Positions 20,408-38,343 of a stretch of DNA of 43,025 nt are shown in pieces. The notes under the pieces were generated by a model. It was not told the origin of the DNA. It saw only the letters and a list, made by a program, of their open reading frames with translations, and did not search any database. The translations under genes and the position numbers were made by a program. How positions within the stretch are numbered: position 1 is the stretch's first letter; every line of letters starts with the position of its first letter. The stretch is from Stutzerimonas nosocomialis (GTDB lineage Bacteria; Pseudomonadota; Gammaproteobacteria; Pseudomonadales; Pseudomonadaceae), in assembly GCF_005876855.1 (NCBI RefSeq), contig NZ_QLAE01000040.1, positions 1-43,025 on the forward strand. Direction: 5' to 3'.

Positions 20408-20438
20408 CAAACGCACTCGTAAAAAATATCTGAACAGG

Positions 20439-20466: not shown

Positions 20467-20494
20467 GCCCCGGCCACAATTAGTTGCGTACACC

Positions 20495-21283
20495 TCAGGC
20501 TACCTGCGGGGTGGCCTGGAAGGCCAGCAGCTGCTTGAGCAGCGCCCGATAGGCGATCACCGCACGGCTGCCCGGATCGAACTGAGAAGGCACGAGGCCC
20601 GCCCGGCTCGCGTCGCGCAGACGGGTGTCGATGGGAATGAACGCCGGCCACAGATTGGCTTCGTAACCCTGACGCAGGACCTTGAGCGTATTCATCGAGG
20701 CCTGGGTGCGCCGGTCGAACAGCGTCGGCACGATGGTGTACGGCAACGCCTGCTTGCGCGAACGGTTGATCATCGCCAGGGTCGCGACCATCCGCTCGAG
20801 TCCCTTGACCGCCAGGAACTCCGTCTGCACGGGGATGACCAGCTGCTGGCTGGCGGCCAGGGCATTGACCATCAGCACGCCGAGCAGCGGCGGGCTGTCG
20901 ATGATCGCATGATCGAAGTCCTGCCACAGCTGCGTCAGACTTTTGGCCACCACCAGCCCAAGGCCGCTCTGCCCCGGCGACTGTCGCTCGAGCGTCGCCA
21001 GCACGGTGCTGGACGGCAGCAGCGAGATGCGTTCATGGCTGGTCGGCAGCAGCAACTGGCGCGGCAAGCCTTCCGGCACGCTGCCCTGATGCTGGAACAG
21101 GTCGAAGACGCTGTGCTCGAGGTTATCGGGGTCCTGGCCGAAATAGCTGGTCATCGACCCGTGCGGATCCAGATCGACCACGACCACGCGCTTGCCCGAA
21201 TCGGCGAGCAAGCCTGCCAGCGCGACAGAGGTAGTGGTCTTGCCCACACCGCCTTTTTGATTGGCTACAGCCCAGACTCTCAT
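20495..21283 (-). CDS. parC: ParA-like chemosensory array positioning ATPase ParC
   Basis: A 262-residue ParA/MinD-family ATPase. The deviant Walker A is NQKGGVGKTTTSVALA (about 8-23), the Walker A' is VVVVDLDPHGSMTSYFG, and the Walker B is HAIIDSPPLLGV. Located between motD and parP, as in other polar-flagellated gammaproteobacteria, where ParC recruits chemotaxis arrays to the cell pole with ParP. This is not the topoisomerase IV subunit of the same symbol. Start ATG 21283; full length for the family. Confidence 0.9.
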   Translation of the reverse strand: MRVWAVANQKGGVGKTTTSVALAGLLADSGKRVVVVDLDPHGSMTSYFGQDPDNLEHSVFDLFQHQGSVPEGLPRQLLLPTSHERISLLPSSTVLATLERQSPGQSGLGLVVAKSLTQLWQDFDHAIIDSPPLLGVLMVNALAASQQLVIPVQTEFLAVKGLERMVATLAMINRSRKQALPYTIVPTLFDRRTQASMNTLKVLRQGYEANLWPAFIPIDTRLRDASRAGLVPSQFDPGSRAVIAYRALLKQLLAFQATPQVA

Positions 21284-24095: not shown

Positions 24096-26306
24096 TCAGA
24101 TCTTGCGTGCGTAGCGCTTGAGCATGCTCGGCACGTCGAGGATCAAGGCAATGCGTCCGTCGCCGGTGATGGTCGCGCCGGACATGCCAGGCGTGCCCTG
24201 CAGCATCTTGCCCAACGGCTTGATGACCACCTCTTCCTGGCCGACCAGCTGGTCGACGACGAAGCCGATGCGCTGGTTGCCGATGCTGAGGATCACCACG
24301 TGCCCTTCGTGCTGTTCTTCGTGGGCGGCGCCCTGCACCAGCCAGCGCTTGAGGTAGAACAGCGGGAGCGCCTTGTCGCGGACGATGACCACTTCCTGGC
24401 CGTCCACCACGTTGGTACGCGACAGATCCAGGTGGAAGATCTCGTTGACGTTGACCAGCGGGAAGGCGAAGGCCTGGTCGCCCAGCATCACCATCAGGGT
24501 CGGCATGATCGCCAGCGTGAGCGGGACCTTGATCACGATCTTCGATCCGCTGCCCTTGGTGGAGAACACGTTGACCGTGCCGTTGAGCTGGGAAATCTTG
24601 GTCTTGACCACGTCCATGCCCACGCCACGCCCGGAGACGTCGGAGATCTCGGTCTTGGTCGAGAATCCCGGCGCGAAGATCAGGTTGTAGCACTCCAGCT
24701 CGCTCAGGCGATCGGCGGCGTCCTTGTCCAGCAGTCCCTTCTCGACCGCCTTGGCGCGCAGGACCGCCGCGTCCATGCCCTTGCCGTCATCGGTGATCAT
24801 CAGCAGGATGTGGTCGCCTTCCTGCTCGGCGGACAGCACCACCCGGCCGGTGCGTGGCTTGCCGGCAGCCTCGCGCTCGTCCGGCGACTCGATGCCGTGG
24901 TCGACCGCGTTGCGCACCAGGTGCACCAGCGGATCGGCCAGGGCCTCGACCAGGTTCTTGTCCAGATCGGTGTCCTCACCGACCAGCTCCAGGTTGATCT
25001 CTTTCTTCAGGTTGCGGGCCAGGTCGCGGACCAGCCGCGGGAAGCGCCCGAAGACCTTCTTGATCGGCTGCATGCGGGTCTTCATCACCGCGGTCTGCAG
25101 ATCGGCGGTCACCACGTCCAGGTTGGACACGGCCTTGGACATCGCCTCGTCGCCGCTGTTGGAGCCCAGGCGCACCAGGCGGTTACGCACCAGGACCAGC
25201 TCGCCGACCATGTTCATGATCTCGTCGAGACGCGCGGTGTCGACCCGAACGGTCGTCTCCGCCTCGCTGGCCGCGGCCGGCTTGTCGGCCGGTGCGGCCG
25301 CCGCGCGTTTGGGCGCTTCGGCAGCCACCGCCGCCTTGGCCGGCGCAGCGGCCGCTATCGGGGCAGGCGCAGCAGGCTTCGGTGCGGGGGCCGGCGCGCT
25401 GGAGGCCGCGGCGGCGGGTTCGGCGAACTTGCCCTTGCCGTGCAGCTGGTCGAGCAGCGCTTCGAATTCGTCGTCTGTGATTTCGTCGCCCGAAGCCGCG
25501 GCGGGCGCGGGAGCAGCAGGCGCGTCTTCGGCGGCAACCACCGCCGGCTCGAACTTGCCCTTGCCGTGCAACTGGTCGAGCAGCGCCTCGAACTCGTCGT
25601 CGCTGATCTCGTCGCTCTGCGGGGCGGCGGCCGACGCGGCCGGTGTCGCAGGCGCCTGAGCCGGGGGCGCTGCGGAAAACTGCCCCTTGCCGTGCAGCTG
25701 GTCGAGCAGGGACTCGAATTCGTCGTCGGTGATTTCGTCCGTAGCCGCTCCCGTCGCGGCCGGCTCGGTAGCCGGGTCAGGCTGGCCCAGCGCGTCGAGC
25801 ATCTGTTCGAATTCTTCTTCGGTGATGTCGCCGGAAGCGGGCTGCGCGGCGGCGGCCGGTGCGACCGCGACCGGGGCCGGCGCAACAGGCGCCGCGGTCA
25901 CCGGAGCGGCATCGGACGCCGGCTCGGCCAGCCGCGCGAGGGCTGCGAGCAGCTCGGGCGAGGCAGGCGTCATGTCGGTCCGCTCGCGGACCTGGCCGAA
26001 CATCTCGTTGACGGCGTCCAGTGCCTGGAGCACGACGTCCATCAATTCCGAGTCAACGCGACGCTCGCCCTTGCGCAGGATGTCGAACACGTTTTCGGCG
26101 ATGTGGCAGCACTCGACCAGCTCGTTGAGCTGGAGGAAGCCGGCGCCCCCCTTGACCGTATGGAAACCGCGAAAGATGGCATTGAGCAGTGCCGTGTCGT
26201 CAGGGCTGCTTTCCAGCTCCACCAACTGTTCGGATAACAACTCAAGAATCTCGCCAGCCTCAACTAGGAAATCCTGAAGGATTTCTTCATCGGCGTCGAA
26301 GCTCAT
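24096..26306 (-). CDS. cheA: Chemotaxis histidine kinase CheA
   Basis: A 736-residue kinase. The P1 Hpt domain (about 1-105) has phosphorylated His 49 in FHTVKGGAGF. An Ala/Pro linker at about 130-350 carries three near-identical copies of an acidic peptide at 190-208, 232-250 and 274-292, plus a degenerate one near 160-174. P3 dimerisation (about 350-410) begins VRVDTARLDEIMNMVGEL. The P4 kinase has the N-box VRNAVDHGIE, DDGKGMD and GRGVGMDVV. P5, the CheW-like domain, is about 600-736. A recognisable P2 (CheY/CheB-binding) domain is not visible between P1 and P3; the repeats take its place. It phosphorylates CheY and CheB. Start ATG 26306, with cheZ 12 bases upstream. Confidence 0.96.
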   Translation of the reverse strand: MSFDADEEILQDFLVEAGEILELLSEQLVELESSPDDTALLNAIFRGFHTVKGGAGFLQLNELVECCHIAENVFDILRKGERRVDSELMDVVLQALDAVNEMFGQVRERTDMTPASPELLAALARLAEPASDAAPVTAAPVAPAPVAVAPAAAAQPASGDITEEEFEQMLDALGQPDPATEPAATGAATDEITDDEFESLLDQLHGKGQFSAAPPAQAPATPAASAAAPQSDEISDDEFEALLDQLHGKGKFEPAVVAAEDAPAAPAPAAASGDEITDDEFEALLDQLHGKGKFAEPAAAASSAPAPAPKPAAPAPIAAAAPAKAAVAAEAPKRAAAAPADKPAAASEAETTVRVDTARLDEIMNMVGELVLVRNRLVRLGSNSGDEAMSKAVSNLDVVTADLQTAVMKTRMQPIKKVFGRFPRLVRDLARNLKKEINLELVGEDTDLDKNLVEALADPLVHLVRNAVDHGIESPDEREAAGKPRTGRVVLSAEQEGDHILLMITDDGKGMDAAVLRAKAVEKGLLDKDAADRLSELECYNLIFAPGFSTKTEISDVSGRGVGMDVVKTKISQLNGTVNVFSTKGSGSKIVIKVPLTLAIMPTLMVMLGDQAFAFPLVNVNEIFHLDLSRTNVVDGQEVVIVRDKALPLFYLKRWLVQGAAHEEQHEGHVVILSIGNQRIGFVVDQLVGQEEVVIKPLGKMLQGTPGMSGATITGDGRIALILDVPSMLKRYARKI
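25431..25829 (-). repeat. cheA: Tandem acidic-peptide repeats in the CheA linker
   Basis: Three 57-base units at 25683-25739, 25557-25613 and 25431-25487 recur at exactly 126 bases (42 codons). They encode the pattern D-E-I-S/T-D-D-E-F-E-A/S-L-L-D-Q-L-H-G-K-G. A fourth, degenerate unit (D-I-T-E-E-E-F-E-Q-M-L-D-A-L-G) lies at about 25785-25829. Spacers are Ala/Pro-rich and not conserved. The constraint on the peptide but not on the spacers suggests repeated binding sites on a flexible tether. Confidence 0.9.
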
Positions 26307-26318
26307 ATTGGCATACCC

Positions 26319-27107
26319 CTAGAAACCAAGACTGGAAAGCAGATCGTCGACATCGTCCTGACCGGATACGACGTCTTCACGCTTATCGGCATGAATCTGC
26401 GGACCTTCACCTTTGGAAGGACCTTTTTGTAGTTCTTGCTCTTTTTTGATCTGTTCATGGTCGTGCGTCACATTGGTGAAGCGGTCGACCTGACTGGCCA
26501 TGAGCACCAGCCTGACCAGGTTCCCCTCGACCTCGGTCACCAGTTGGGTAACGCGCTTGATCACCTGCCCGGTCAGGTCCTGATAGTCCTGCGCCAGCAT
26601 GATGTCGTTCAGGTGAGAAGACAGCTTCTGCGTGTCGCGCTCGCTGCGCGCCAGGTAGAGCTCGATGCGCTTGGCCAGTTCGCGGAACGACTCCAGGCCG
26701 ATCTCGCGGCGCAGCAGCTTGCCCCATTCGGCGCTGAGCACCTTGGCTTCGTCGTTCAGGTCGTTGACCAGAGGCGCGCACTCCTCCACCAGATCCATGG
26801 TCCGGTTGGCGGCGCGCTCGGTCATCTGGACGACGTACGAAAGCCGCTCGGTGGCATCGGAAATCTGCGATACCTCCGTCGCGTGCGGAGTCCGGGGGTC
26901 GATCTGGAGATTGACGATGGCGGTGTGCAGTTCGCGGGTCAGCTTGCCGACCTCACGGTACAGGCCGTTGTCGTGAACCTGCGCCATCGCGTGAATCAAT
27001 TGCGCCGCATCGCTGAACTGGCCTTTTTCCAAATGCTCCGTCAGCTCGCGGGCATGGTTTTTCAGGGTCGACTCGAGGTCACCTGGTTGTGGTTCGATAT
27101 TCGCCAT
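26319..27107 (-). CDS. cheZ: CheY-phosphate phosphatase CheZ
   Basis: A 262-residue helical protein that dephosphorylates CheY. The long hairpin helices contain AQDYQDLTGQVIKRVTQL, whose Asp and Gln correspond to the catalytic region of E. coli CheZ. A disordered, charged linker follows. The extreme C-terminus (GQDDVDDLLSSLGF) is the conserved peptide that docks on CheY-P. Start ATG 27107 is preceded by GAGGG. Lies between cheY and cheA. Confidence 0.95.
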   Translation of the reverse strand: MANIEPQPGDLESTLKNHARELTEHLEKGQFSDAAQLIHAMAQVHDNGLYREVGKLTRELHTAIVNLQIDPRTPHATEVSQISDATERLSYVVQMTERAANRTMDLVEECAPLVNDLNDEAKVLSAEWGKLLRREIGLESFRELAKRIELYLARSERDTQKLSSHLNDIMLAQDYQDLTGQVIKRVTQLVTEVEGNLVRLVLMASQVDRFTNVTHDHEQIKKEQELQKGPSKGEGPQIHADKREDVVSGQDDVDDLLSSLGF

Positions 27108-27126
27108 AGTGCCCTCGCGGCATACA

Positions 27127-27501
27127 TCAGCCGTTAACCCGCTCGAAGATCTTCTCGATCTTTTCTTTCAATACCTGAGCCGTGAACGGCTTGACCACGT
27201 AACCGTTCACCCCGGCCTGGGCGGCTTCGATGATCTGGTCGCGTTTGGCTTCGGCGGTCACCATCAGCACCGGCAGGTGCTTGAGGCGCTCATCGGCGCG
27301 CACGGCGCGCAGCAGGTCGATGCCGGTCATGCCGGGCATGTTCCAGTCGGTCACGAGGAAATCGAAACTTCCGCTCTGCAGCATCGGCAACGCGGTGGTG
27401 CCGTCATCCGCTTCGGCAGTATTGGTGAAACCAAGATCACGCAAGAGATTCTTGATGATCCGTCTCATCGTCGAAAAATCATCGACGATGAGGATTTTCA
27501 T
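27127..27501 (-). CDS. cheY: Chemotaxis response regulator CheY
   Basis: A 124-residue stand-alone receiver: [20 protein letters not shown], acidic pocket Asp 7/8, phospho-acceptor Asp 52 in [11 protein letters not shown], Thr in MVTAEA, and Lys in VVKPFTAQ. Phosphorylated CheY binds FliM/FliN at the motor switch. Start: the ATG at 27501 gives the usual 124 residues but has no near ribosome site. A good GGAGG lies at 27519-27523, five bases before a TTG at 27513 that would add MDKN to the N-terminus, so the true start may be the TTG. It lies 73 bases after fliA. Confidence 0.96.
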
Positions 27502-27574
27502 GTTCTTGTCCAAGTCGACCTCCGTAAGTCCCAAAATGCCTTAGCAGCTGAGCACGTCATCCATCGAGAACCGC

Positions 27575-28321
27575 TCAGCGTGCGCGCCATTCGCCGAGGC
27601 GAGCACGCAAGCGGGCGGCACATTGACTGTGCAGCTGACTCACCCGCGATTCGCTGACGCCGAGCACCTGCCCGATTTCCTTCAAATTCAGCTCTTCGTC
27701 GTAGTACAGCGACAACACCAGTTTTTCGCGCTCGGGAAGATTGGCGATCGCCTCGGCCAGGGCCTGCTGGAAGCGCTCGTCTTCAAGGTCGCGAAAAGGC
27801 TCGGGGTGGGCGCTGCTGGCGTCTTCGTTCAGTTCGCCGTGTTCGCCCTCCTGAAGCAGGTCATCGAAGCTGAACAGGCGGCTGCCCAAAGTGTCGCCAA
27901 GGATGCCGTAGTACTCATCGAGACTCAATTTAAGTTCGGCAGCAACTTCGTGATCTTTAGCGTCACGTCCGGTTTTCGCTTCGATCGAGCGAATCGCGTC
28001 GCTGACCATGCGCGAATTGCGGTGTACCGAACGCGGCGCCCAGTCGCCCTTGCGCACTTCGTCGAGCATGGCGCCGCGTATTCGAATACCCGCATAGGTC
28101 TCGAAACTGGCGCCCTTGCCGGCGTCGTATTTCTTGGAGGCCTCGAGCAGACCGATCATGCCGGCCTGCATCAGATCATCGACCTGAACGCTGGCCGGCA
28201 GACGCGCCAGCAGGTGATAGGCGATGCGCTTGACCAGGGGGGCATACTGCTCGATCAGCTGGTACTGCGAGTCCTTCGCTTGCGACTTGTTTTCATACAT
28301 ACGAAGTCCGGCTGCTGTCAT
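27575..28321 (-). CDS. fliA: Flagellar sigma factor FliA (sigma-28)
   Basis: A 248-residue sigma factor. Region 2 contains QYAPLVKRIAYHLLARLPASVQVDDLMQAGMIGLLEA and GASFETYAGIRIRGAMLDEVRKGDW. Region 3 follows. Region 4 has LPEREKLVLSLYYDEELNLKEIGQVLGVSESRVSQLHSQ, the -35-binding helix-turn-helix. It directs late genes (flagellin, FliT, chemotaxis) and is held by FlgM until hook completion. The ATG overlaps the fleN stop (ATGA), so it is coupled. Sigma-28 sites before fliT and parP in this window are its likely targets. Confidence 0.97.
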   Translation of the reverse strand: MTAAGLRMYENKSQAKDSQYQLIEQYAPLVKRIAYHLLARLPASVQVDDLMQAGMIGLLEASKKYDAGKGASFETYAGIRIRGAMLDEVRKGDWAPRSVHRNSRMVSDAIRSIEAKTGRDAKDHEVAAELKLSLDEYYGILGDTLGSRLFSFDDLLQEGEHGELNEDASSAHPEPFRDLEDERFQQALAEAIANLPEREKLVLSLYYDEELNLKEIGQVLGVSESRVSQLHSQCAARLRARLGEWRAR

Positions 28322-29145
28322 ACGGGGTTATCTGCGGTTGGTCGAACGAGGCGTTCCACGAAGAACTCGAGGTGGCCGCGCGGGTTTGCCGGCAGCGGCC
28401 AGGTATCGACCTTCTGCGCGATGGCCTTGAAGGCCAGCGAGCATTTGGAACGGGGATAGGCTTCATATACGGCGCGCTGCTTCTGTACCGCCTTGCGCAC
28501 CGTCTCGTCGTACGGCACGGCCCCTACGTACTGCAGGGCCACGTCGAGGAAACGCTCGGTCACCTTGGTGAGTTTGGCAAACAGGTTGCGCCCTTCCTGC
28601 GGGGTGTGGGCCATGTTGGCCAGCACACGGAAACGGCTCATGCCGTAATCGCGGTTGAGCAGCTTGATCAGGGCATAGGCGTCGGTGATCGAGGTCGGCT
28701 CGTCGGTCACCACCAGCAACACTTCCTGGGCGGCGCGAACGAAGCTCACCACCGAATCGCCGATGCCCGCCGCGGTGTCGACGATCAGCACGTCGAGGTT
28801 CTCGCTGATGTCGCTGAACGCCTGGATCAGGCCGGCGTGCTGCATGGGCGAGAGCTGCACCATGCTCTGCGTGCCGGACGCGGCCGGAACGATGCGGATA
28901 CCGCCTGGGCCCTGCAGGATGACGTCGCGCAGATCGCACTCGCCTTCGATCACGTCGGCCAGGGTGCGCTTGGCGCTGAGCCCGAGCAGGACGTCGACGT
29001 TGGCAAGCCCGAGGTCGGCATCGAGCAGCATCACCCGGCGACCGAGGTCGGCCAGGGCCAGCGCCAGATTGACCGACACGTTGGTCTTGCCGACGCCACC
29101 CTTGCCGCCGGTCACCGCAATCACCTGTACGGGATGCATACCCAT
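28318..29145 (-). CDS. fleN: Flagellar number regulator FleN (FlhG)
   Basis: A 275-residue MinD-like ATPase. The deviant P-loop is GGKGGVGKTNVSVNLA (about 13-28), the switch is MLLDADLGLANVDVLLG, and the Walker B is VLIVDTAAGIGDSVV. A C-terminal amphipathic stretch follows. FleN opposes FlhF and binds FleQ to limit Pseudomonas to a single polar flagellum. The ATG at 29145 has AAAGGTG about 9 bases upstream. The gap to flhF (94 bases) holds a plus-strand terminator-like hairpin. Confidence 0.96.
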   Translation of the reverse strand: MGMHPVQVIAVTGGKGGVGKTNVSVNLALALADLGRRVMLLDADLGLANVDVLLGLSAKRTLADVIEGECDLRDVILQGPGGIRIVPAASGTQSMVQLSPMQHAGLIQAFSDISENLDVLIVDTAAGIGDSVVSFVRAAQEVLLVVTDEPTSITDAYALIKLLNRDYGMSRFRVLANMAHTPQEGRNLFAKLTKVTERFLDVALQYVGAVPYDETVRKAVQKQRAVYEAYPRSKCSLAFKAIAQKVDTWPLPANPRGHLEFFVERLVRPTADNPV

Positions 29146-29186
29146 TTAATTAAACACCTTTGTCTCGCTGAGGCCTGTGGGGCCAT

Positions 29187-29217
29187 AGATGCGTCCCACT
29201 GGACGCGTCTGTTTTTT
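29187..29217 (+). terminator. Plus-strand intrinsic terminator in the flhF-fleN gap
   Basis: Read on the plus strand, AGATGCGTCC-CACT-GGACGCGTCT forms a 10-bp stem (one G-U pair) with a 4-base loop, followed by G and six Ts. On the minus strand, the direction of all annotated genes here, there is no T-run after the stem and one pair becomes a mismatch. It is therefore best oriented to stop antisense transcripts coming from the fleN/fliA side. Confidence 0.6.
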
Positions 29218-29239
29218 GTCTGGCCGGTGCGGGTAACGT

Positions 29240-30535
29240 TCACCCGACCCGACGCGAAGAGTCGTTGTACAGCCCTGCGAACATATCAGCCATGGCTTCC
29301 TCGCTGGGATCTTCGGTGCTTTGCAGGCTTACCGCCCGGCTGACCAGCTGGTGGGCGCGCGGCAGATGCAGGTCATCCGGAATCCGCGGACCGTCGGCGA
29401 GATAGGCTACCGGCAGACGCTGGCTTATGGCCAGCCCCAGCACTTCACCGAGGCTACCGGCCTCATCCAGCTTAGTCAGGATACAGCCGGCCAGCCCGCA
29501 GCGTTTGTAGCTGTGCCAGGCGGCCTTGAGGACCTGACTCTGGCTGGTCGCCGCCAGCACCAGGTAGTTCCTGGACTTGATGCCACGGCTGGCCAGGGCC
29601 TCGAGCTGCATGCGCAGCGCCGGATCGCTGGCCGGCAGCCCGGCGGTATCGATCAGGATCACGCGCTTGCGTGCCAGCGGCGCGAGCGCCTGGGTCAGCG
29701 ACTGGCCGGCATCCACCGGCGTCACCGACACGTCAAGAATCCGTCCGAGCGTCTTGAGCTGCTCCTGGGCGCCGATGCGATAGCTGTCCATGCTCACCAG
29801 CGCGATGTTGCGCGCGCCGTACTTGAGAACGTAGCGGGCGGCCAGCTTGGCCAGCGTGGTGGTCTTGCCGGCGCCGGCCGGACCGACCAGGGCGATCACC
29901 CCGCCCTCTTCCAGCGGCTCTTCCTTGGTGGTCTTGATCGCCTGGGCCAGGTAGGCCAGGACCATGCGCCACGCCTTGCGGGGCTCGTCGATGCCAGCCA
30001 CCTTTTCCAGCAGCGCACGCGACAGCTCGGCGGGCAGGCCCATGCGCTGCAGGCGGCGCCAGAGGCTGGCCTGCTGCGGCTTGCGGCTTTGCATCTGGCC
30101 CCAGGCGATCGAGCCGAGCTGGACTTCGATCAGCTCGCGCAGGCCATGCAGTTCGGAGCGCATCGCATCGAAGGCGCGCGGATCGACAGTGGCAGCCGCG
30201 GCAGCCATCGGCGCTGGCGCGGACGCGGCCGGAGCGGCAGCAGGCTTCTGTTCGCTCTGCAGCTGGCGATTGCTCACGGCATCGGCCTGGGCGCGGCTGC
30301 TCAGCTCGGCGTGGGCGGCGGCGATGCGCGACTGGGTCTTGCGCAGCTCGGCTTCGAGCGCGGGGTTCGGCTGGCGAGCCGCCGGCGCCTGCACGGGGTA
30401 GTCCAGCGCAGCGGTCAGCTCGACCCCGCCGGCAACCTTGCGGTTGCCGAGGATCGCGGCATCGGCGCCCAGCTCGTCACGCACCAGTTTCATGGCTTGA
30501 CGCATATCGGCTGCGAAGAAACGTTTGACCTGCAT
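29240..30535 (-). CDS. flhF: Polar flagellar assembly GTPase FlhF
   Basis: A 431-residue SRP-type GTPase. The basic N-terminal domain starts MQVKRFFAADMRQAMKLVRDEL. An Ala/Pro-rich variable region follows (about 60-130). The NG domain has G1 VGPAGAGKTTTLAKLAARY, G3 LIDTAGLPASD and G4 LTKLDEAGS. It marks the pole where the flagellum is built. A GTG at 30544 would add three residues, but GAGGG is 8 bases before the ATG at 30535, which gives the family's MQVKRFF start. It follows flhA by 15 bases. Confidence 0.96.
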   Translation of the reverse strand: MQVKRFFAADMRQAMKLVRDELGADAAILGNRKVAGGVELTAALDYPVQAPAARQPNPALEAELRKTQSRIAAAHAELSSRAQADAVSNRQLQSEQKPAAAPAASAPAPMAAAAATVDPRAFDAMRSELHGLRELIEVQLGSIAWGQMQSRKPQQASLWRRLQRMGLPAELSRALLEKVAGIDEPRKAWRMVLAYLAQAIKTTKEEPLEEGGVIALVGPAGAGKTTTLAKLAARYVLKYGARNIALVSMDSYRIGAQEQLKTLGRILDVSVTPVDAGQSLTQALAPLARKRVILIDTAGLPASDPALRMQLEALASRGIKSRNYLVLAATSQSQVLKAAWHSYKRCGLAGCILTKLDEAGSLGEVLGLAISQRLPVAYLADGPRIPDDLHLPRAHQLVSRAVSLQSTEDPSEEAMADMFAGLYNDSSRRVG

Positions 30536-30550
30536 GGCCTGCACCCTCGA

Positions 30551-32671
30551 TTAATTCTGACCCACCGTCGAAACGATGGTGACCTGCTTGTTGTCCGGTA
30601 TTTCCTGGTACGCCAGCACATGCATGTTCGGAACCGCGAGCCGGGCGAAGCGCGAGAGCATCGCGCGGACCGGACCGGCTACCAGCAGGATCGCCGGCTT
30701 GCCGAACATTTCTTGACGCTGTGCCGCGTCTATCAGGGAACGTTGCAACTTCTCGGCCATTCCGGGTTCCAGCAGAATTCCGTCGTCGGAGCCCTGTCCG
30801 GCCTTCTGCAGGCTATTGAGCAATATCTGTTCCAACCTGGGTTCCAGAGTGATCACAGGCAGCTCGGGCTCTAGTCCCACAATGCTTTGCACGATTGCGC
30901 GGGACAGCGCGACGCGGACCGCAGCGACCATCGCGGCGGGATCTTGACTCCGCGGCGCGACGTTCGCGATGGCCTCGGCGATGGTGCGGATGTCGCGCAC
31001 CGGCACCTGCTCCTGCAGCAGCGCCTGCAACACCTTGAGCAGCGTCGACAGGGAAATCATCCCCGGCACCAGCTCTTCGGCGAGCTTGGGCGAGCTCTTG
31101 GCCAGCAGCTGCATCAGCTGCTGCACTTCCTCGTGGCCCAGCAGCTCGTGGGAATGCTTGTGCAGCACCTGGTTCAGGTGGGTCGCGACCACGGTACTGG
31201 CATCCACCACCGTGTAGCCCAGCGACTGCGCCTGATCGCGCTGGCTGGCCTCGATCCACACCGCTTCCAGGCCGAACGCCGGGTCCTTGGCGGCGATGCC
31301 GTTGAGCGTGCCGAACACCTGGCCCGGGTTGATCGCCAGCTCCCGATCCGGATACACCTCCGCTTCGGCCAGGCTCACGCCCATGAGCGTCAGCCGATAG
31401 GCATTGGGCATCAGGTCCAGGTTGTCGCGAATGTGTACCGAGGGCATCAGGAAGCCGAGCTCCTGGGAGAGCTTCTTGCGCACGCCCTTGATCCGCGCCA
31501 GCAGCTGGCCACCCTGGTTGCGATCGACCAGCGGGATCAGCCGATAGCCCACTTCCAGGCCGACCATGTCGACCGGCGTCACGTCATCCCAGCCAAGCTC
31601 CTTGGTCTCGGCCGCACGCTGGGCCGGCAACAGCTCCTGCTGCTTCTGGACTTCCTGTTCGGCCTGCACCTTGACCTGCTTCTGGCGGTGCCAGATCCAG
31701 TAGGCCCCCCCCGCGGCGAGGCCACCCAGGCTGAGGAACGACATGTGCGGCATGCCGGGGACGAGCCCCATGGCGATCAGAATGGCCGCCGAGACCGCCA
31801 GCGCCTTGGGCGAGGCGAACATCTGGCGCTGGACCTGCTGGCCCATGTCTTCAGAGCTGGTGACGCGGGTCACCATGATGGCCGCGGCGGTGGACAGCAG
31901 CAACGACGGGATCTGAGCCACGAGGCCGTCACCGATGGTCAGCAAGGCGTAGACCTTGCCGGCCTCGGAGAAGCTCATCGCGTGCTGCGCCATGCCGATG
32001 GCGATGCCACCGATGAGGTTGATGAAGAGAATCAGCAGGCCGGCGATGGCATCGCCGCGCACGAACTTGCTCGCACCGTCCATCGAGCCGTAGAAGTCGG
32101 CCTCGGAGGACACCTCGGAGCGGCGCTTCTTGGCCTCCGCCTGGTCGATCAGGCCGGCGTTGAGGTCGGCGTCGATCGCCATCTGCTTGCCGGGCATGGC
32201 ATCGAGGGTGAAACGCGCGCTCACCTCGGAAATACGGCCGGCACCCTTGGTGACCACCACGAAGTTGATGATCATCAGGATCGCGAAGACCACGATACCG
32301 ACGACGTAGTTGCCCCCGATCACCACGTTGCCGAAGGCCTCGATCACGTGGCCGGCGGCGGAACCGCCCTCGTGACCGTTGATCAGCACCACGCGGGTCG
32401 ACGCCACGTTCAGCGCCAGGCGCATCAGGGTCGCGACCAGCAGGATCGTCGGAAACACCGCGAAATCCAGCGGGCGCAGCGCGTAGACGCTCACCAGCAA
32501 CACCACGATCGACAAGGCGATGTTGAAGGTGAACAGCAGATCCAACAGGAACGGCGGCACCGACAGCATCATCATGCCCATCATGACGAGCAGCAGCAGC
32601 GGCACCCCGAGGTTGCCACGGCTGAGTCCCGCCAGGTTGTTGCGCATATTGACCAGTTGCGTGCGATCCAC
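30551..32671 (-). CDS. flhA: Flagellar type III export component FlhA
   Basis: A 706-residue export gate protein. The N-terminal half (about 1-330) has eight hydrophobic segments and the FHIPEP-family region (PTILLVATLMRLALNVASTR; VVTKGAGRISEVSARFTLDAMPGKQMAIDADLNAG). The C-terminal cytosolic domain (about 350-706) forms the nonameric ring that docks chaperone-substrate complexes. The GTG at 32671 (MDRTQLVNMRN) is taken as start; an ATG at 32647 is an alternative. GGGGG lies 4 bases before the GTG. Head of a transcript from a sigma-54 promoter just upstream. Confidence 0.97.
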   Translation of the reverse strand: MDRTQLVNMRNNLAGLSRGNLGVPLLLLVMMGMMMLSVPPFLLDLLFTFNIALSIVVLLVSVYALRPLDFAVFPTILLVATLMRLALNVASTRVVLINGHEGGSAAGHVIEAFGNVVIGGNYVVGIVVFAILMIINFVVVTKGAGRISEVSARFTLDAMPGKQMAIDADLNAGLIDQAEAKKRRSEVSSEADFYGSMDGASKFVRGDAIAGLLILFINLIGGIAIGMAQHAMSFSEAGKVYALLTIGDGLVAQIPSLLLSTAAAIMVTRVTSSEDMGQQVQRQMFASPKALAVSAAILIAMGLVPGMPHMSFLSLGGLAAGGAYWIWHRQKQVKVQAEQEVQKQQELLPAQRAAETKELGWDDVTPVDMVGLEVGYRLIPLVDRNQGGQLLARIKGVRKKLSQELGFLMPSVHIRDNLDLMPNAYRLTLMGVSLAEAEVYPDRELAINPGQVFGTLNGIAAKDPAFGLEAVWIEASQRDQAQSLGYTVVDASTVVATHLNQVLHKHSHELLGHEEVQQLMQLLAKSSPKLAEELVPGMISLSTLLKVLQALLQEQVPVRDIRTIAEAIANVAPRSQDPAAMVAAVRVALSRAIVQSIVGLEPELPVITLEPRLEQILLNSLQKAGQGSDDGILLEPGMAEKLQRSLIDAAQRQEMFGKPAILLVAGPVRAMLSRFARLAVPNMHVLAYQEIPDNKQVTIVSTVGQN
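30621..30636 (-). promoter_or_regulatory. Possible internal sigma-54 promoter for flhF
   Basis: Within the 3' end of flhA, minus strand CGGTTCC-GAAC-ATGCA keeps the invariant GG-N10-GC but matches the rest of the consensus only partly. It is about 90 bases before the flhF ATG. flhF of P. aeruginosa is a class II gene with its own promoter, which gives some weight to this site. Confidence 0.3.
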
Positions 32672-32727
32672 GGAGCCCCCACAGGCATAACAATCTTTTG
32701 ACGCTCTCTGCGTCTCGCATGAGCTAT

Positions 32728-32743
32728 AGCAAGAAGGGGTCCA
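32728..32743 (-). promoter_or_regulatory. Sigma-54 promoter of flhA
   Basis: Minus strand TGGACCC-CTTC-TTGCT: the invariant GG-N10-GC is present and the -12 element TTGCT is perfect. The predicted start is about 45 bases before the flhA GTG. Fits FleQ/RpoN control of flhA. The rest of the 225-base gap between flhA and sodC shows no gene. Confidence 0.7.
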
Positions 32744-32896
32744 ACTTTTTCGACGCTGGCGTGAAAGCCGCGCAGCCGCCGCTACGAGTCACCAGGCACG
32801 GGCCAGGGGCCGGCTACGGCGAACCCGACCGCCCTGCGGCAGTCAGAACTCAACGGTAGCCACACCGTCCTTTCCCCCTCGTACAGGAGACGAGAC

Positions 32897-33418
32897 ATGA
32901 AGCAATGGATAATCGCCGCGCTGGCCAGCTGCACGGCCGCGGGCCTACACGCCGAAACGCTCTCGGTCCCGATGAATCTGGTCAACGAACAAGGCGTCGG
33001 CCAATCGGTCGGTACGGTGAAGATCGAAAGCAACGAATACGGCCTGGTGTTCCGTCCCGAACTCAAGGACCTGGCGCCTGGCATCCACGGCTTCCACCTG
33101 CATGCCAAGGGTAACTGCGGCACCGCCGAGCAGGATGGCAAGACGGTACCGGCCGGCGCCGCGGGCGGCCATTGGGACCCCCAGAACACCGGCAAGCACG
33201 GCGAGCCATGGGGCGACGGGCACCTGGGCGACCTGCCTGCGCTGATGGTCGAAAGCGATGGCAGCGCGAGCCAGCCCGTGCAGGCACCGCGACTCAAGAG
33301 CCTGGGCGATCTCAAGGGCCTGGCGCTGATGGTCCACAAGGGCGGCGACAACCATGCCGACCATCCCGAGCCGCTGGGCGGTGGCGGCGCCCGTGTCGCC
33401 TGCGGTGTGATCGAGTAA
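32897..33418 (+). CDS. sodC: Periplasmic Cu/Zn superoxide dismutase
   Basis: A 173-residue secreted enzyme with a signal peptide ([19 protein letters not shown], cleavage near 19). Metal-binding motifs are [10 protein letters not shown] (copper His pair and disulfide Cys), [25 protein letters not shown] (bridging and zinc His, zinc Asp) and [26 protein letters not shown] (copper His and second Cys). It converts periplasmic superoxide to peroxide and oxygen. AGGAGA lies 7 bases before the ATG. It is the only plus-strand gene between 18 and 43 kb, placed between flhA and flhB and convergent with flhB at 18 bases. No obvious terminator separates them. Confidence 0.95.
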
Positions 33419-33436
33419 CGCCGCAAGCGCCACCCG

Positions 33437-34573
33437 CTATTCGTCGCGGCGCAGGTCCGGCGGAATCGGCAGGTCCGGCAGCGGGTCGGGCCTGCGTCCC
33501 TTGCCCGAGCGGTACTGACGCAACTGGTAGACGTAGGCCAGCACCTGCGCGACCGCCAGGTACAGCCCGGCTGGAATCTCCTGGTCGACTTCGGTCGAGT
33601 AGTACACCGCACGGGCGAGCGCCGGCGACTCCAGCACCGTGACCTTGTGCTCCTGGCCGATCTCCCGGATCTTCAGCGCCAGGAAGTCACCCCCCTTGGC
33701 CAGCAGCATCGGCGCGTTGCCCCGCTCGGCGTCGTACTTGAGCGCCACCGCGAAGTGGGTCGGGTTGGTGATGATCACGTCGGCCTCGGGGATCGCCTGC
33801 ATCATCCGGCGGTCGGCCATTTCACGCTGCATCCGCCGAATGCGCGCCTTGACCTCGGGTTTGCCCTCGGTGTCCTTGTATTCGTCACGCACTTCCTGCT
33901 TGGTCATCATCAGCTTCTGCTTGTTGTCCCAGAGCTGGAACGGCACGTCCACCGCCGCGATCAGGATCAGGCCACAGGCCATCCACAGGGAACACCAGCC
34001 GACGATCTCGGCGCTGTGCATGATCGCCAGGTCCAGCGGCTGCTTGGCGATGGACAACAGGTCGTCCTGATAGGCCGAGAGCACCACCAGCGCCACCAGC
34101 AGCACCACCAGGAACTTCCCCAGCGCCTTGAGCAGCTCGACCAGCGCCTTGGTCGAGAACATCCGCTTGAGCCCCGCGCCGGGGTTCATCCGGCTGAATT
34201 TGGGCGCCATCGCCTTGGCCGAGAACAGCCAGCCGCCCAGGGCGATCGGACCGATGACCGAAGCCACCAGCAGCACCACCAGCAGCGGCATGATCGCCTT
34301 GAGCGCGATCATGCCGCTGCTCATCAGCATCATCGCCATGGCGCCTTCTTCGAGCAGGGTTTCCCGGCTCAGGGCGAAGTTGCCGCGCATCATGCCCATC
34401 ATGGCCTGGCCCAGGCTGCCGCCCGACGCGAGCAGCCCGCCTACGCCGGCAAGCGTGACCGCGACGGTGGTGAGATCGCGCGAACGCGCGATCTGGCCTT
34501 TCTCACGGGATTCACGGAGCCGTTTCTCCGTGGGTTCCTCGCTTTTGTCGGCACCGCTTTCGCTTTCAGCCAT
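33437..34573 (-). CDS. flhB: Flagellar export switch protein FlhB
   Basis: A 378-residue export-apparatus protein. The N-terminal tail (SEEPTEKRLRESREKGQIARSRDL) is typical. Four hydrophobic segments lie between about 35 and 215. The cytoplasmic domain has the autocleavage site NPTH (270-273) followed by FAVALKYDAERGNAP. Cleavage, together with FliK, switches export from rod/hook to filament substrates. Last gene of the fliL-flhB operon. The ATG at 34573 is 27 bases after fliR. It ends in a Pro/Arg-rich tail. Confidence 0.97.
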   Translation of the reverse strand: MAESESGADKSEEPTEKRLRESREKGQIARSRDLTTVAVTLAGVGGLLASGGSLGQAMMGMMRGNFALSRETLLEEGAMAMMLMSSGMIALKAIMPLLVVLLVASVIGPIALGGWLFSAKAMAPKFSRMNPGAGLKRMFSTKALVELLKALGKFLVVLLVALVVLSAYQDDLLSIAKQPLDLAIMHSAEIVGWCSLWMACGLILIAAVDVPFQLWDNKQKLMMTKQEVRDEYKDTEGKPEVKARIRRMQREMADRRMMQAIPEADVIITNPTHFAVALKYDAERGNAPMLLAKGGDFLALKIREIGQEHKVTVLESPALARAVYYSTEVDQEIPAGLYLAVAQVLAYVYQLRQYRSGKGRRPDPLPDLPIPPDLRRDE

Positions 34574-34600
34574 GCGAAATCGCCTCCATGAAAGACCTGT

Positions 34601-35377
34601 TCATCGCGACCCCACCAGCTCGCGCAGCAACTGCAGCGCCTCGGTGGCGAACAGCTGGTACTGCGCCAGGAAATCGACCATGCCGGCCCAGACGATGACC
34701 AGCCCCAGCACCAGCGTCAGCGGGAAACCGATGCTGAAGATGTTCAGTTGCGGCGCCGCGCGGGTCATCAGGCCGAACGCCAGGTTGACCACCAGCAGCG
34801 CGGTGATCGCCGGCAGCACCAGCAGCAGGCCGGCGCCGAACACCCAGCCCAGCTTGCCGGCCACCTCCCAGAAATGGTTGCTGCTCAGCCCGCCGCCCAC
34901 CGGCAGGGTGACGAAGCTCTCGGTGATGATTTCGAGCACCACCAGGTGGCCGTTCATCGCCAGGAACAGCAGCACGACCAGCATGTTGAAGAACTGGCCA
35001 ATCACCGCCACCGAGACGCCGTTGGCCGGGTCGACCATCGAGGCGAAACCAAGGCCCATCTGCATCGCCAGCAACTGGCCGGCGACGATGAACACATGGA
35101 AGAACAGTTGCAGCGCGAACCCCAGCATCGCCCCGATGAGAATCTGCTCGGCGATCAGCAGCAACGCCCGCGGCGTCAGCGCGTCGACCACCGGCATCGG
35201 CGGCAGGGCAGGCACCAGCACCACGGTGATCGCCAGCGCCAGGTACAGCCGCACCCTCCCCGGCACGAGCTGGGTACCGATGATGGGCATGGTCATCAGC
35301 AAGGCGGCGATGCGAAACAGCGGCAGCAGGAACTGCGCCACCCAGCCGCCGATCTGCGCGTTGCTCAGCTCAAGCAT
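34601..35377 (-). CDS. fliR: Flagellar export protein FliR
   Basis: A 258-residue integral membrane protein of the export gate, with six hydrophobic segments (FRIAALLMTMPIIGT; LALAITVVLVPALPPM; LLIAEQILIGAMLGFALQLFFHVFIVAGQLLAMQMGLGFASMVDP). The MGLGFASMVDPANG stretch is characteristic. Together with FliP and FliQ it forms the helical channel core. Begins one base after the fliQ stop. Confidence 0.96.
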   Translation of the reverse strand: MLELSNAQIGGWVAQFLLPLFRIAALLMTMPIIGTQLVPGRVRLYLALAITVVLVPALPPMPVVDALTPRALLLIAEQILIGAMLGFALQLFFHVFIVAGQLLAMQMGLGFASMVDPANGVSVAVIGQFFNMLVVLLFLAMNGHLVVLEIITESFVTLPVGGGLSSNHFWEVAGKLGWVFGAGLLLVLPAITALLVVNLAFGLMTRAAPQLNIFSIGFPLTLVLGLVIVWAGMVDFLAQYQLFATEALQLLRELVGSR

Positions 35378-35378
35378 G

Positions 35379-35648
35379 TCAGCCGATCAGCATCGGAATG
35401 TTGCGGACCAGGGTCTCGGTGTACTCCATGAACACCCGCACCAGCCAGGGCCCCGCCCAGATCAGGGTCAGCAGCATCACCAGCAGCCTCGGCAGAAAGC
35501 TCAAGGTCTGCTCGTTGATCTGGGTCGCGGCCTGGAACATCGCCACCACCAGGCCGATCAGCAGGCTCGGCACCACCAGGATGCCGACCATCATGGCGGT
35601 CATCCAGAGCGCTTCGCGGAACAGGTCGACTGCGACTTCGGGTGTCAT
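35379..35648 (-). CDS. fliQ: Flagellar export protein FliQ
   Basis: An 89-residue protein with two transmembrane helices: TPEVAVDLFREALWMTAMMVGILVVPSLLIGLVVAMFQAATQINEQTLSFLPRLLVMLLTLIWAG. The FQAATQINEQTLSF loop is the family signature. Four copies pack against FliP/FliR in the export gate. Normal length; ten bases after fliP. Confidence 0.97.
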   Translation of the reverse strand: MTPEVAVDLFREALWMTAMMVGILVVPSLLIGLVVAMFQAATQINEQTLSFLPRLLVMLLTLIWAGPWLVRVFMEYTETLVRNIPMLIG

Positions 35649-35658
35649 GGTCGCGCTC

Positions 35659-36435
35659 CTAAAGGGTTCCGAAACTGCCGGCCAGGGTCCCGATGATCAG
35701 CCCCCAGCCATCGACCAGCACGAACAGCATGATCTTGAACGGCAACGAGATGATCAGCGGGGACAGCATCATCATGCCCATCGCCATCAGCACGCTGGCG
35801 ACCACCATGTCGATGATCAGGAAGGGAATGAAGATCATGAAGCCGATCTGGAAGGCGGTCTTGAGCTCGGAGGTCACGAAGGCCGGCACCAGGATCGTCA
35901 GCGGCGTGGCGTCCGGGCTCTGGATATCGGTACGCCGTGACAGGCGCACGAACAGCTCCAGATCGCTTTCGCGGGTCTGCGCCAGCATGAAGTTCTTCAT
36001 CGGCACCTCGGCCCGCGCGATCGCCTCCTGTGCAGGCAATTGTTCGTTCAGGTAGGGCTGCAGGGCGTCGCGGTTAATCTGGTCGAACACCGGCGCCATG
36101 ATGAACAGGGTCAGGAAGATGGTCAGGCCGACCAGGATCTGGTTCGACGGCGTCTGCTGCAGGCCCAGCGCCTGACGCAGGATGGAAAACACGATGATGA
36201 TCCGGGTGAAGCTGGTCATCAGCATGACGAACGCCGGGATGAAGCTCAGCGCCGTCATGATCAGCAGGATCTGCAGGCTGACCGAATACTCCTGCTGCCC
36301 CTCCGCGTTGGTGCTCAGGGTGATCGCGGGGATCGACAGCGGGCTGTCGCCCTGCGAAAGCAGCCCGCCGGCATCCTGACCGAGCGCGAGGGGCGCGACC
36401 AGCGCCAGGAAAATCGCCAGCAGAATACGCGGCAT
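35659..36435 (-). CDS. fliP: Flagellar export protein FliP
   Basis: A 258-residue export gate protein with a cleavable signal ([19 protein letters not shown]) and then hydrophobic segments. The family signatures are [40 protein letters not shown] and [44 protein letters not shown]. The start ATG at 36435 overlaps the fliO stop (TGATG). A TTG one codon upstream is not needed. Confidence 0.96.
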
Positions 36436-36863
36436 CAAAGCTTGTCCTTGTTGTCCCTGCCCAGCAGCTCCATCAGGCGCTGGGCGAATTCCGGATTGGC
36501 CGGTTCCGCATCGGGAAGATGCACCGGCTCCTTGAGTACGTGCAGCGGCGTGATCCGCCCCGCGCTGATGCCCAGCAGCACCTGCTCGCCGCCGACCTGT
36601 ACCAGCACCAGGCGATCGCGCGGCCCCAGCGCCTGGGTGGAGATCAGCTTGATGACCTGGGCGCCGCGCGGGTTGAGCTGCTGGACCCGGCGCAGCAGCC
36701 AGGCCAGCAGGAAGATCAGACCGATGACCAGCAGCAGCCCGAGCAACAGCTTGGTCACCTGCGAGCCCATGCTCGCGCTGCTCATGGTGGCCGCAGGCTC
36801 GGCGGCGAAAGCGGGCAACGCGGCGAGCGAGGCCAGCGAGGCGAAAAGTCCGAGGATTCGCAT
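36435..36863 (-). CDS. fliO: Flagellar assembly protein FliO
   Basis: A 142-residue protein with a signal-like N-terminus ([18 protein letters not shown]) and one strong transmembrane helix ([22 protein letters not shown]). A soluble cytoplasmic domain follows ([42 protein letters not shown]). FliO helps assemble the FliP ring and is the least conserved export component; position between fliN and fliP confirms it. One base separates it from fliN. Confidence 0.93.
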
Positions 36864-36864
36864 G

Positions 36865-37329
36865 TCAGCGCAGCTTCTTGATGCGTTCGCTGGGGCTGAT
36901 CACGTCGGTCAGGCGGATGCCGAACTTCTCGTTGACCACCACCACTTCGCCATGGGCGATCAGGGTTCCGTTGACCAGCACGTCGAGCGGCTCGCCCGCC
37001 AGGCGGTCCAGTTCTACGACCGAACCCTGGTTGAGCTGCAGCAGGTTGCGGATGCTGATTTCGGTGCTGCCGACTTCCATCGAGATCGATACCGGGATGT
37101 CCAGAATGACATCCAGGTTCGGCCCCTCCAGGCTCACCTGCCCGCTGGGCTTGGGCATCCCGCCGAATTCTTCCATCGGTGCGCGTGGTGCGGCAGGCGC
37201 CGCGGCTGCGGCCCCGTTCATCAGCGCATCGATGTCGTCCTGGCTGGCATCGCCCGCCTCGGCCAGCGCGGCCGCCCATTCGTCGGCCAGTGCCTGCTCT
37301 TCGGGGGACTGTTCGTTCTCGTCTGCCAT
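36865..37329 (-). CDS. fliN: Flagellar motor switch protein FliN
   Basis: A 154-residue C-ring protein. An acidic N-terminal region (1-45) includes SQDDIDALMNG at about 29-39. An Ala/Pro linker follows. The SpoA (surface presentation of antigens) domain (about 70-150) has ILDIPVSISMEVGSTEISIRNLLQLNQGSVVELDRLAGEPLDVLVNGTLIAHGEVVVVNEKFGIRLTDV. The N-terminal peptide resembles the CheY-binding peptide of FliM, and FliN is a known second CheY-P contact in some bacteria. Follows fliM by 42 bases. Confidence 0.97.
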   Translation of the reverse strand: MADENEQSPEEQALADEWAAALAEAGDASQDDIDALMNGAAAAAPAAPRAPMEEFGGMPKPSGQVSLEGPNLDVILDIPVSISMEVGSTEISIRNLLQLNQGSVVELDRLAGEPLDVLVNGTLIAHGEVVVVNEKFGIRLTDVISPSERIKKLR

Positions 37330-37371
37330 TGCTAATCCTCGACCGGCACGAAATTAAAAAAGAAAGATTGC

Positions 37372-38343
37372 TTAGCGGGGCCGTTCTACCGGCGACAGCA
37401 CCTGCAGCGCCAGGTTGCCCTTGTGCGCGCCGAGCTTGACCCGGAATGCCGGCATGCCATTGGCACGCATGATCATGTCTTCCGGCACCTCGACCGGAAT
37501 GATATCGCCCGGTTGCATGTTCAGGATGTCGCGCAGCTTGAGCTGCCGGCGCACGACGGTGGCCCCGAGCGGCACGTTGACGTCGAGAATGTCTTCACGC
37601 AGCGCCTTGACCCAGCGCTCGTCCTGATCGTCGACGTCGGACTGGAAGCCGGCATCGAGCATTTCCCGGATCGGCTCGATCATCGAATAGGGAATGGTGA
37701 TGTGCAGATCGCCGCCGCCACCGTCCAGCTCGATATGGAAGGTGGAGACCACCACCACTTCGCTGGGGCTGACGATGTTGGCCAGCGCTGGGTTCACTTC
37801 GGAGTTGATGTATTCGAAGTTGACGTCCATCACCGCATGCCAGGCTTCCTTCAGATCGACGAAGGCCTGGTCCAGCACCATGCGCACGACGCGCAGCTCG
37901 GTGGGGGTGAATTCACGACCTTCGATCTTGGCGTGGCGGCCATCGCCGCCGAAGAAGTTGTCCACCAGCTTGAACACCAGCTTGGCGTCGAGGATGAACA
38001 ATGCCGTACCGCGCAGCGGCTTCATCTTCACCAGATTCAGGCTGGTCGGCACGTAGAGCGAATGCACGTATTCGCCGAACTTCATCACCTGCACGCCGCC
38101 GACCGACACATCGGCCGAGCGCCTCAGCAGGTTGAACATGCTGATACGGGTGTAGCGGGCGAAACGTTCGTTGATCATCTCCAGCGTCGGCATGCGTCCG
38201 CGGACGATGCGATCCTGGCTGGTCAGGTCGTAGCTCTTGATGCTCCCCGGTTCGGCATCGCTTTCGGTCTCGACCAGACCGTCGTCGACTCCATGCAGGA
38301 GCGCGTCGATTTCGTCTTGTGAGAGCAGGTCTTGAACGGCCAT
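37372..38343 (-). CDS. fliM: Flagellar motor switch protein FliM
   Basis: A 323-residue C-ring protein. The N-terminal CheY-P-binding peptide is LLSQDEIDALLHGVDDG (about 6-22). The middle domain (about 45-230) has NERFARYTRISMFNLLRRSADV, FFGGDGRHAKIEGREFTPTELRVV and INSEVNPALANIVSPSEVVVV. A C-terminal SpoA domain completes it. It receives the chemotaxis signal and reverses rotation. The ATG at 38343 gives the family start MAVQDLLSQDE; a TTG three codons upstream is rejected. Follows fliL by 15 bases. Confidence 0.97.
   Translation of the reverse strand: MAVQDLLSQDEIDALLHGVDDGLVETESDAEPGSIKSYDLTSQDRIVRGRMPTLEMINERFARYTRISMFNLLRRSADVSVGGVQVMKFGEYVHSLYVPTSLNLVKMKPLRGTALFILDAKLVFKLVDNFFGGDGRHAKIEGREFTPTELRVVRMVLDQAFVDLKEAWHAVMDVNFEYINSEVNPALANIVSPSEVVVVSTFHIELDGGGGDLHITIPYSMIEPIREMLDAGFQSDVDDQDERWVKALREDILDVNVPLGATVVRRQLKLRDILNMQPGDIIPVEVPEDMIMRANGMPAFRVKLGAHKGNLALQVLSPVERPR

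Follow-up and report, generated by a model that had tools for sequence, protein, structure and literature searches.

In Escherichia coli, the motor protein FliM, the phosphatase CheZ and the P2 domain of the kinase CheA all use the alpha4-beta5-alpha5 face of CheY, and P2 releases CheY after phosphorylation. The N-terminal peptide of E. coli FliM is reported to have a 20-fold higher affinity for phosphorylated CheY (CheY-P; PMC7355467), the FliM N-terminus also mediates the FlhG-FliM interaction of monotrichous bacteria (PMC12826062), and full or degenerate EIDAL motifs have been described sporadically in FliN and FliY (PMC6946799). In a published survey more than half of the CheAs had no P2 domain, even by profile-profile search (PMC10782961). 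In vibrios, a localization and inheritance domain (LID) between P2 and P3 of CheA binds ParP and is described only where ParC and ParP exist (PMC7534058, PMC5706961). Here we describe the CheA of Stutzerimonas nosocomialis, encoded in a stretch of 43,025 nucleotides (contig NZ_QLAE01000040.1, positions 1 to 43,025; hereafter the window) that includes a flagellar/chemotaxis cluster of a Pseudomonas relative. Between P1 and P3 this CheA carries four copies of a short acidic peptide that resembles the FliM N-terminal peptide, and, judging from the sequence, we put the probability that these copies are tethered CheY-docking peptides replacing P2 at roughly 70%.

The cheA gene (24096..26306, minus strand, as for all features below unless stated) encodes, by Pfam, an Hpt domain (P1, residues 8-100), a long linker, and P3, P4 and P5 (H-kinase_dim, 351-410; HATPase_c, 458-597; CheW, 604-731). 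We place the protein in the F6 class of gammaproteobacterial flagellar CheAs, a name taken from the literature and not from a classifier, and the closest CheA among those aligned, from Stutzerimonas azotifigens (L170), is 94% identical to it. The P1-P3 linker (residues 127-351; 25254..25928) contains four copies of the helix motif I-[ST]-[DE]-[DE]-E-F-E-x-L-L-D, in units that begin at residues 159, 190, 232 and 274, the final three being spaced 42 residues apart. Read in frame, these are a divergent repeat 1 (GDITEEEFEQMLDALGQPD, unit peptide GDITEEEFEQMLDALG; 25776..25832), repeat 2 (DEITDDEFESLLDQLHGKG; 25683..25739), repeat 3 (DEISDDEFEALLDQLHGKG; 25557..25613) and repeat 4 (DEITDDEFEALLDQLHGKG; 25431..25487), the last of which scores 32.5 with the CheA-repeat profile described below. 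The original prediction had listed peptides of this kind in CheA, FliM, FliN and CheZ, and all were recovered in frame on the minus strand; of its three or four CheA copies, four are real, but of the three given as DDEFEALLDQLHG one reads DDEFESLLDQLHG. Compared pairwise over 21 codons, the three full copies show 4-5 synonymous versus 1-3 non-synonymous differences, an excess that suggests selection on the peptide. The AlphaFold model (AlphaFold2 run on a 53-row alignment; mean predicted local distance difference test score, pLDDT, of 78.4) has only four helices in the linker, at residues 163-172, 194-204, 236-247 and 278-288, and these are the four repeats (block mean pLDDT about 60-79); outside them, residues 133-351 are mostly coil at pLDDT < 50. 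Each repeat is thereby predicted to be a short helix on a disordered tether, and FliM-type docking peptides are likewise short helices on a disordered tether or terminus.

The repeats are conserved well beyond the window. A match was found in 174 of 274 genomes searched, and 94 gammaproteobacterial loci were hand-picked, with the omission of some partial matches at contig edges and of matches of non-F6 appearance. Five of these loci contributed nothing to the repeat profile because they failed the search patterns, L095 and L097 having no P3 start by pattern and L065, L078 and L088 no repeat by a first, stricter pattern; a later profile scan found repeats in L065, L095 and L097. The ten-residue profile draws on 227 CheA repeats, all from genomes other than the window's. 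At least one repeat scoring at least 12 bits was present in 93 of the 95 CheAs (94 loci plus the window), counts made with a profile whose training set was these same repeats, the window's excepted. The two exceptions are L098, whose degenerate copy scores 11.6 bits, and L088, where visual inspection shows two copies in a different frame, next to a run of N that marks an assembly gap. Eight CheAs had one copy, 32 had two, 39 had three, 13 had four and one had eight; the eight-copy linker is that of L060, and all other counted CheAs had at most four. Repeats are a median of 41 residues apart (range 23-69), and their consensus is [DE]-[DE]-I-[ST]-[DE]-[DE]-E-F-[ED]-A-L-L-D-x-L-H-G-K-G. A variant was seen in L042, where the three repeats of the CheA are almost identical, end in EITDDEFEALLNQRD and lack the usual LHGKG tail; neither ParC nor ParP was found in that genome.

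A second sample consisted of named genomes, namely the best 80 loci of a genome-contig scan, 78 of which encode a CheA with 540 residues or more. Of these 78, 46 have a repeat that scores at least 20 bits; they come from Pseudomonas, Stutzerimonas, Shewanella, Vibrio, Photobacterium, Aeromonas, Alteromonas, Colwellia, Marinobacter, Succinivibrio, Dyella, Stenotrophomonas, other Gammaproteobacteria and Acidithiobacillus, and all eleven named CheAs from Pseudomonas (nine) and Stutzerimonas (two) are among them. Among the 32 CheAs without a repeat, one was gammaproteobacterial (Lysobacter, with a degenerate copy at 11 bits), and the 31 from other groups all scored at most 10 bits; these include four betaproteobacteria with CheZ, Campylobacterota (Helicobacter, Sulfuricurvum), Nitrospirota and Acidobacteria. 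The profile scan likewise found no repeat in the E. coli CheA linker. Since the named loci were selected for their likeness to an F6-type CheA, they are not independent events. One contig titled as a Klebsiella pneumoniae metagenome-assembled genome (L156) has an F6-type CheA with repeats and is probably mislabelled or from a mixed bin. A full-text literature search found no report of these repeats in CheA, most subscription papers being outside its reach.

The likeness to FliM was assessed both against chance and against the other proteins of the cluster. A DNA pattern for [DE][DE]phi[DE]x[LF]phi had 107 matches across the 4.76-Mb genome compared to 66 for the reversed pattern used as a control, so that about one would be expected per 43 kb; the window has seven listed matches, six of which are in frame in CheA (three), CheZ, FliN and FliM. 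Thirty of the 107 sites were translated in frame, and the two with the best scores in a recognised domain family were identified as look-alikes, in an unrelated solute-binding protein with VDEIDALL (FliM-profile score 21.8) and in an aminotransferase (12.0). The seven-residue core by itself is therefore non-specific and weak evidence. The ten-residue match is a different matter, and chance as its source was rejected on the basis of the match itself, its conservation and its placement in linkers or at protein termini. In profile scans of the 1646 genes that a simple codon-usage script predicted in 93 loci plus the window (one of the 94 loci had too little coding sequence for the gene caller and was dropped) and with at least 12 bits counted as a match, the CheA-repeat profile retrieved 66 of 71 FliM proteins; elsewhere it matched FliA 1/71, ParP 2/43, CheZ 1/85 and CheW 1/77, and 3 of 1549 shuffled proteins. 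The FliM profile retrieved CheZ 53/85, CheA 27/97 and FliN 4/69, together with CheB 1/79, one of 397 unannotated genes and none of the remaining families, and the CheZ profile retrieved FliM 61/71, FliN 4/69, FlhF 2/83 and FliL 1/67. Recovery of FliM (69/71) and CheZ (84/85) by their own profiles is by construction, whereas the cross-family counts are not. These scans recovered both the surroundings of EIDALL and the N-cap S/T that mark a FliM-type motif. Weak likeness to the CheA repeat was also seen at the C-terminal ends of CheW from the window (18955-19434; MMTEEEWSDLENI, 6.0 bits) and from L063 (LLTDEEWEELASL, 12.2 bits).

In the window itself, the FliM N-terminal peptide (LSQDEIDALLHG; 38290..38325; CheA-profile score 13.9) and the CheZ C-terminal peptide (SGQDDVDDLLSSLGF; 26322..26366) both belong to known classes of CheY-binding site, and FliM tips and CheZ tails were nearly invariant across the loci. 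FliN has a FliM-like motif, SQDDIDALMNG, at residues 29-39 (37213..37245; FliM-profile score 19.9). Across the loci this motif was found in 4 of 69 FliN proteins by the FliM profile: those of the window, of L007 from the same genus, and of L073 and L074. When 29 genomes were searched as relatives, 27 had FliN; the motif was present in each of the 19 searched members of the window's genus, the window's own genome included, and in the others one (L232) had a weak form at 10.0 bits and seven had none. FliN can accordingly be kept as a carrier of the peptide, as originally proposed, but one mostly confined to the window's genus and rare elsewhere.

As the original prediction also held, the window CheA appears to have no folded P2 domain, and the repeats occupy the place of P2. 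No Pfam P2 or CheY-binding match was found in the window CheA or in any of the 53 motif-bearing CheAs searched (38 of the 46 named, 14 others and the window), and the AlphaFold model has no P2 fold between P1 and P3; a hidden P2 was considered, and neither approach revealed one. In the 32 motif-less CheAs, Pfam identified P2 in four and a receiver domain in five.

The reading that we favor is that the four short amphipathic acidic helices in the disordered P1-P3 linker mimic the FliM N-terminal peptide, and that each probably docks CheY via its alpha4-beta5-alpha5 face. Docked CheY would be kept near phosphorylated P1, which may raise the rate of phosphotransfer as P2 does, and each CheA dimer would present between six and eight sites spaced by about 42 residues. 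As related peptides occur in FliM, CheZ and CheA, and in FliN within the window's genus, these proteins should exclude one another on CheY. We infer CheY as the partner, and beyond that the binding face, the effect on rate and the competition. The indirect indications for CheY are a likeness to FliM that exceeds that to any other family of the cluster, the P2 position, and the persistence of the repeats in genomes that yielded neither ParC nor ParP (see below). In this respect the proposal that the CheA copies are CheY contacts has gained indirect backing.

The CheY side is compatible with such docking. The proposed common partner is encoded by cheY (27127..27534, with a possible start at the ATG at 27501; Pfam Response_reg), and 152 CheYs were aligned, 131 from motif-bearing and 21 from motif-less loci, and compared at positions that we take to form the face bound by FliM in E. 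coli. In motif-bearing loci, I95, A98, G105, Y106, F111, L116 and K119 are present in 131/131, K91 in 123, K117 in 115 and K122 in 125, and the positive charge at K91, K117 and K122 is of a kind that would suit an acidic peptide. More telling than the rest of the face are R92 and Q94, which along with V103 occur in 113, 127 and 129 of the 131 motif-bearing loci, respectively, but for R92 and Q94 in only two and three of the 21 motif-less loci. F6 CheYs that were recruited to an F7 CheA are reported to have undergone the P2-facing changes R92K, Q94N and V103A, with K117, in the FliM-contacting helix, also changed (PMC7184735). The pattern at R92, Q94, V103 and K117 would fit a kinase that contacts the same CheY face by means other than P2, and docking repeats could help to explain the P2-facing changes that accompany a switch of kinase class (PMC7184735). 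In addition, CheY and CheZ were pulled down by Pseudomonas putida CheA (PMC11978298) and CheY-eYFP overlaps CheA-CFP at the P. aeruginosa pole (PMC12410967), although the available text of neither paper places the contact in the linker. When CheY and FliM were used to query solved structures, known entries for the two proteins came up, which gave no information on a partner.

Several observations weigh against CheY docking by the repeats. In CheYs from motif-less loci, A98, Y106, K109, P110 and F111 are present in 21/21, K119 in 20/21 and V103 in 15/21, so that much of the face is equally conserved there and its conservation is permissive and not specific. The likeness among the peptides is also uneven, as CheZ tails score a median of 5.4 bits and the window FliN only 4.8 bits with the CheA-repeat profile, and the CheZ profile matches no CheA (0/97 at 12 bits or more). 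Given that the FliM profile finds both CheZ and CheA, the family is centred on FliM; a single motif shared by all, as first proposed, survives to the extent that CheA and CheZ are each FliM-like, and fails between CheA and CheZ. Relative to FliM, the repeats have F for I/V and a conserved D-x-L-H-G-K-G tail, which could indicate another partner, and their phyletic pattern tracks CheA phylogeny and hence represents few independent events. With regard to P2, Pfam models are reported to miss many P2 domains (PMC10782961), and P. putida CheA has been assigned five domains by Pfam, P2 included (PMC11978298), which disagrees with our result for the window. Lastly, in a P2-less E. coli CheA the phosphorylation of CheY is reported to persist, although slower (PMC10782961), so docking is not obligatory.

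An alternative partner is ParP, in which case the repeats would be the LID of CheA, binding the AIF domain of ParP and holding the array at the pole. They lie in the same stretch of CheA as that described for the LID (PMC7534058, PMC5706961), the window encodes a parC-like ParA ATPase (20495..21283) and a parP-like protein with a CheW-type (AIF) domain (19508..20479), both assigned by Pfam and by relatives, and ParC and ParP were found at 68 and 45 of the 94 loci, respectively, in fetched stretches that end about 5 kb past cheA. Genome-wide searches, made in 40 of the 94 genomes (mostly those with ParC or ParP missing from the stretch) and in nine named ones, gave a different picture. No ParC orthologue was found in nine of the 40 (best match at most 205 bits, versus at least 288 in the other 31), and eight of these nine also had no ParP above the level of CheW (at most 36 bits), the ninth, G179, having a ParP-like match of 89 bits. 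The repeats are nevertheless retained in all eight: six score at least 20 bits, L098 scores 11.6 bits, and those of L088 were recognised by eye. Similarly, neither ParC nor ParP was found in five of the nine named genomes, four of them drafts, yet repeats score 23-31 bits in Acidithiobacillus sp. YTS05 (a complete genome), Dyella acidisoli, D. monticola, Allochromatium palmeri and Hydrocarboniphaga sp., and Stenotrophomonas rhizophila keeps its repeats with ParC and no clear ParP. ParP is divergent (41-47 bits in some ParC-bearing genomes), so a very diverged ParP could escape such a search. Altogether, repeats are retained in 13 genomes in which neither protein was found, in one of them as a weak match and in another by visual inspection. 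The repeats are thus apparently neither restricted to genomes with ParC and ParP nor dependent on ParP. This weakens the LID explanation, which we consider unlikely, even if ParP may still make use of a single repeat or its tail.

Another candidate reader of the repeats, not named in the original prediction, is FlhG (FleN), the second protein known to contact the FliM N-terminus (PMC12826062), which would tie the array to flagellum counting at the pole. The gene fleN (28318..29145; Pfam ParA/AAA_31) lies fourth in order upstream of the window's cheA, but FlhG is so widespread that its presence or absence cannot discriminate: it was found at 243 bits or more in 12 of the 13 ParC/ParP-less genomes, and the thirteenth, G154, keeps three repeats with a match of only 179 bits. 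We see little probability in this explanation. Only marginally better placed, in our judgement, is the notion that the repeats are SHOCT-like helices for CheA self-association or linker stiffening, their likeness to FliM being a convergence of short acidic amphipathic helices. Pfam does report SHOCT in the window CheA at 35.5 bits (cut-off 27) and, as a further point against CheY docking, in 31 of the 53 CheAs, the window's included, and look-alike stretches occur elsewhere in the genome. However, the best stretch covers only positions 11-27 of the 28 in the profile, FliM, FliN and CheZ of the window have no SHOCT match at E up to 1, the match between repeats and FliM is far above that to all other families, and isolated single helices in coil, as modelled, would suit docking peptides at least equally well. 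SHOCT is a C-terminal oligomerisation element, and the CheA repeats, despite the label, sit in an internal linker in several copies, so that annotation by Pfam alone could mislead. Lastly, the repeats may have no notable partner and be a low-complexity, recombination-prone element of the linker, in keeping with a copy number of one to eight, with Ala/Pro-rich spacers and with the reported dispensability of P2 for phosphotransfer in E. coli (PMC10782961). This we judge very improbable, as the core is near-invariant (E in 224, F in 226 and L in 225 of 231 repeats, residues that the search pattern itself favors) while the spacers drift, and synonymous differences exceed non-synonymous ones among the window copies.

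Further features of ParC, ParP and the linkers were noted in individual loci. In Vibrio and Photobacterium CheAs (L146, L154, L177) the third repeat is followed by a conserved tail, GKGPSx[DE]EL[DE]xAT[KR]P, that was not seen in ten other linkers compared and is a candidate for the ParP-binding LID. ParC-like proteins (about 289 bits) without a clear ParP (at most 40 bits) were found in G012, G165, Stenotrophomonas (L173) and Lysobacter (L205). Genes for parC-like (427-510 bits) and parP-like (313-490 bits) proteins lie near cheA in the window (19508-21283) and in 11 named Pseudomonas and Stutzerimonas loci (L136-L138, L142-L144, L148, L160, L162, L170, L192), P. aeruginosa not being among them; P. 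aeruginosa is described as having no ParC/ParP-related genes (PMC12410967). Opposite cheA, on the plus strand, is an open frame of 645 codons (24300-26237), a GC-rich shadow frame that is no gene on present evidence.

If the CheA repeats do dock CheY, they would offer a direct answer to how P2-less CheAs find CheY efficiently, in the form of a peptide array that is countable, easily mutated and conserved. A bolder version, which we put forward tentatively and would not ourselves expect to hold in full, is that kinase, motor and phosphatase, with FliN in the window's genus, compete through one peptide code that also buffers CheY-P. In this version the gammaproteobacterial flagellar CheAs would have dropped P2 or never had it, and the kinase would instead be linked to CheY by an array of copies of the motor's motif. 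A preference of the CheA copies for CheY-P, like that of the E. coli FliM peptide, would make the polar array a multivalent CheY-P buffer with a capacity set by the number of repeats, the reverse of the logic of P2 release in E. coli.

Compared to the known systems, the CheA repeats are closest to the FliM N-terminal peptide, with which they share the I/L-[ST]-x-[DE]-[DE]-phi-[DE]-A-L-L register and a short helix on a disordered tether, and which the CheA profile retrieves; they differ from it in having F for I/V, the additional tail, multiple copies and a kinase as host. The CheZ C-terminal peptide has in common with them its acidic residues and phi-[DE]-x-L-L, followed by another L three positions later (L-L-x-x-L), but it is single and C-terminal, and its profile retrieves none of the CheAs. 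The FliY and FliN proteins with EIDAL motifs have a counterpart in the FliM-like motif of FliN in the window's genus, which differs in being gammaproteobacterial, about 30 residues in, and present in the 19 genomes of that genus that were searched. With the CheA LID the repeats share the region of CheA described for vibrios, and the window has parC- and parP-like genes as well, but the LID is reportedly absent without ParC and ParP, and the repeats occur where neither was found. Finally, the E. coli-type P2, or CheY-binding domain, has the same position between P1 and P3 and the same expected role in recruiting CheY, but it is a folded domain, whereas the window CheA has no such fold in its model and the 53 motif-bearing CheAs have no Pfam match to P2.

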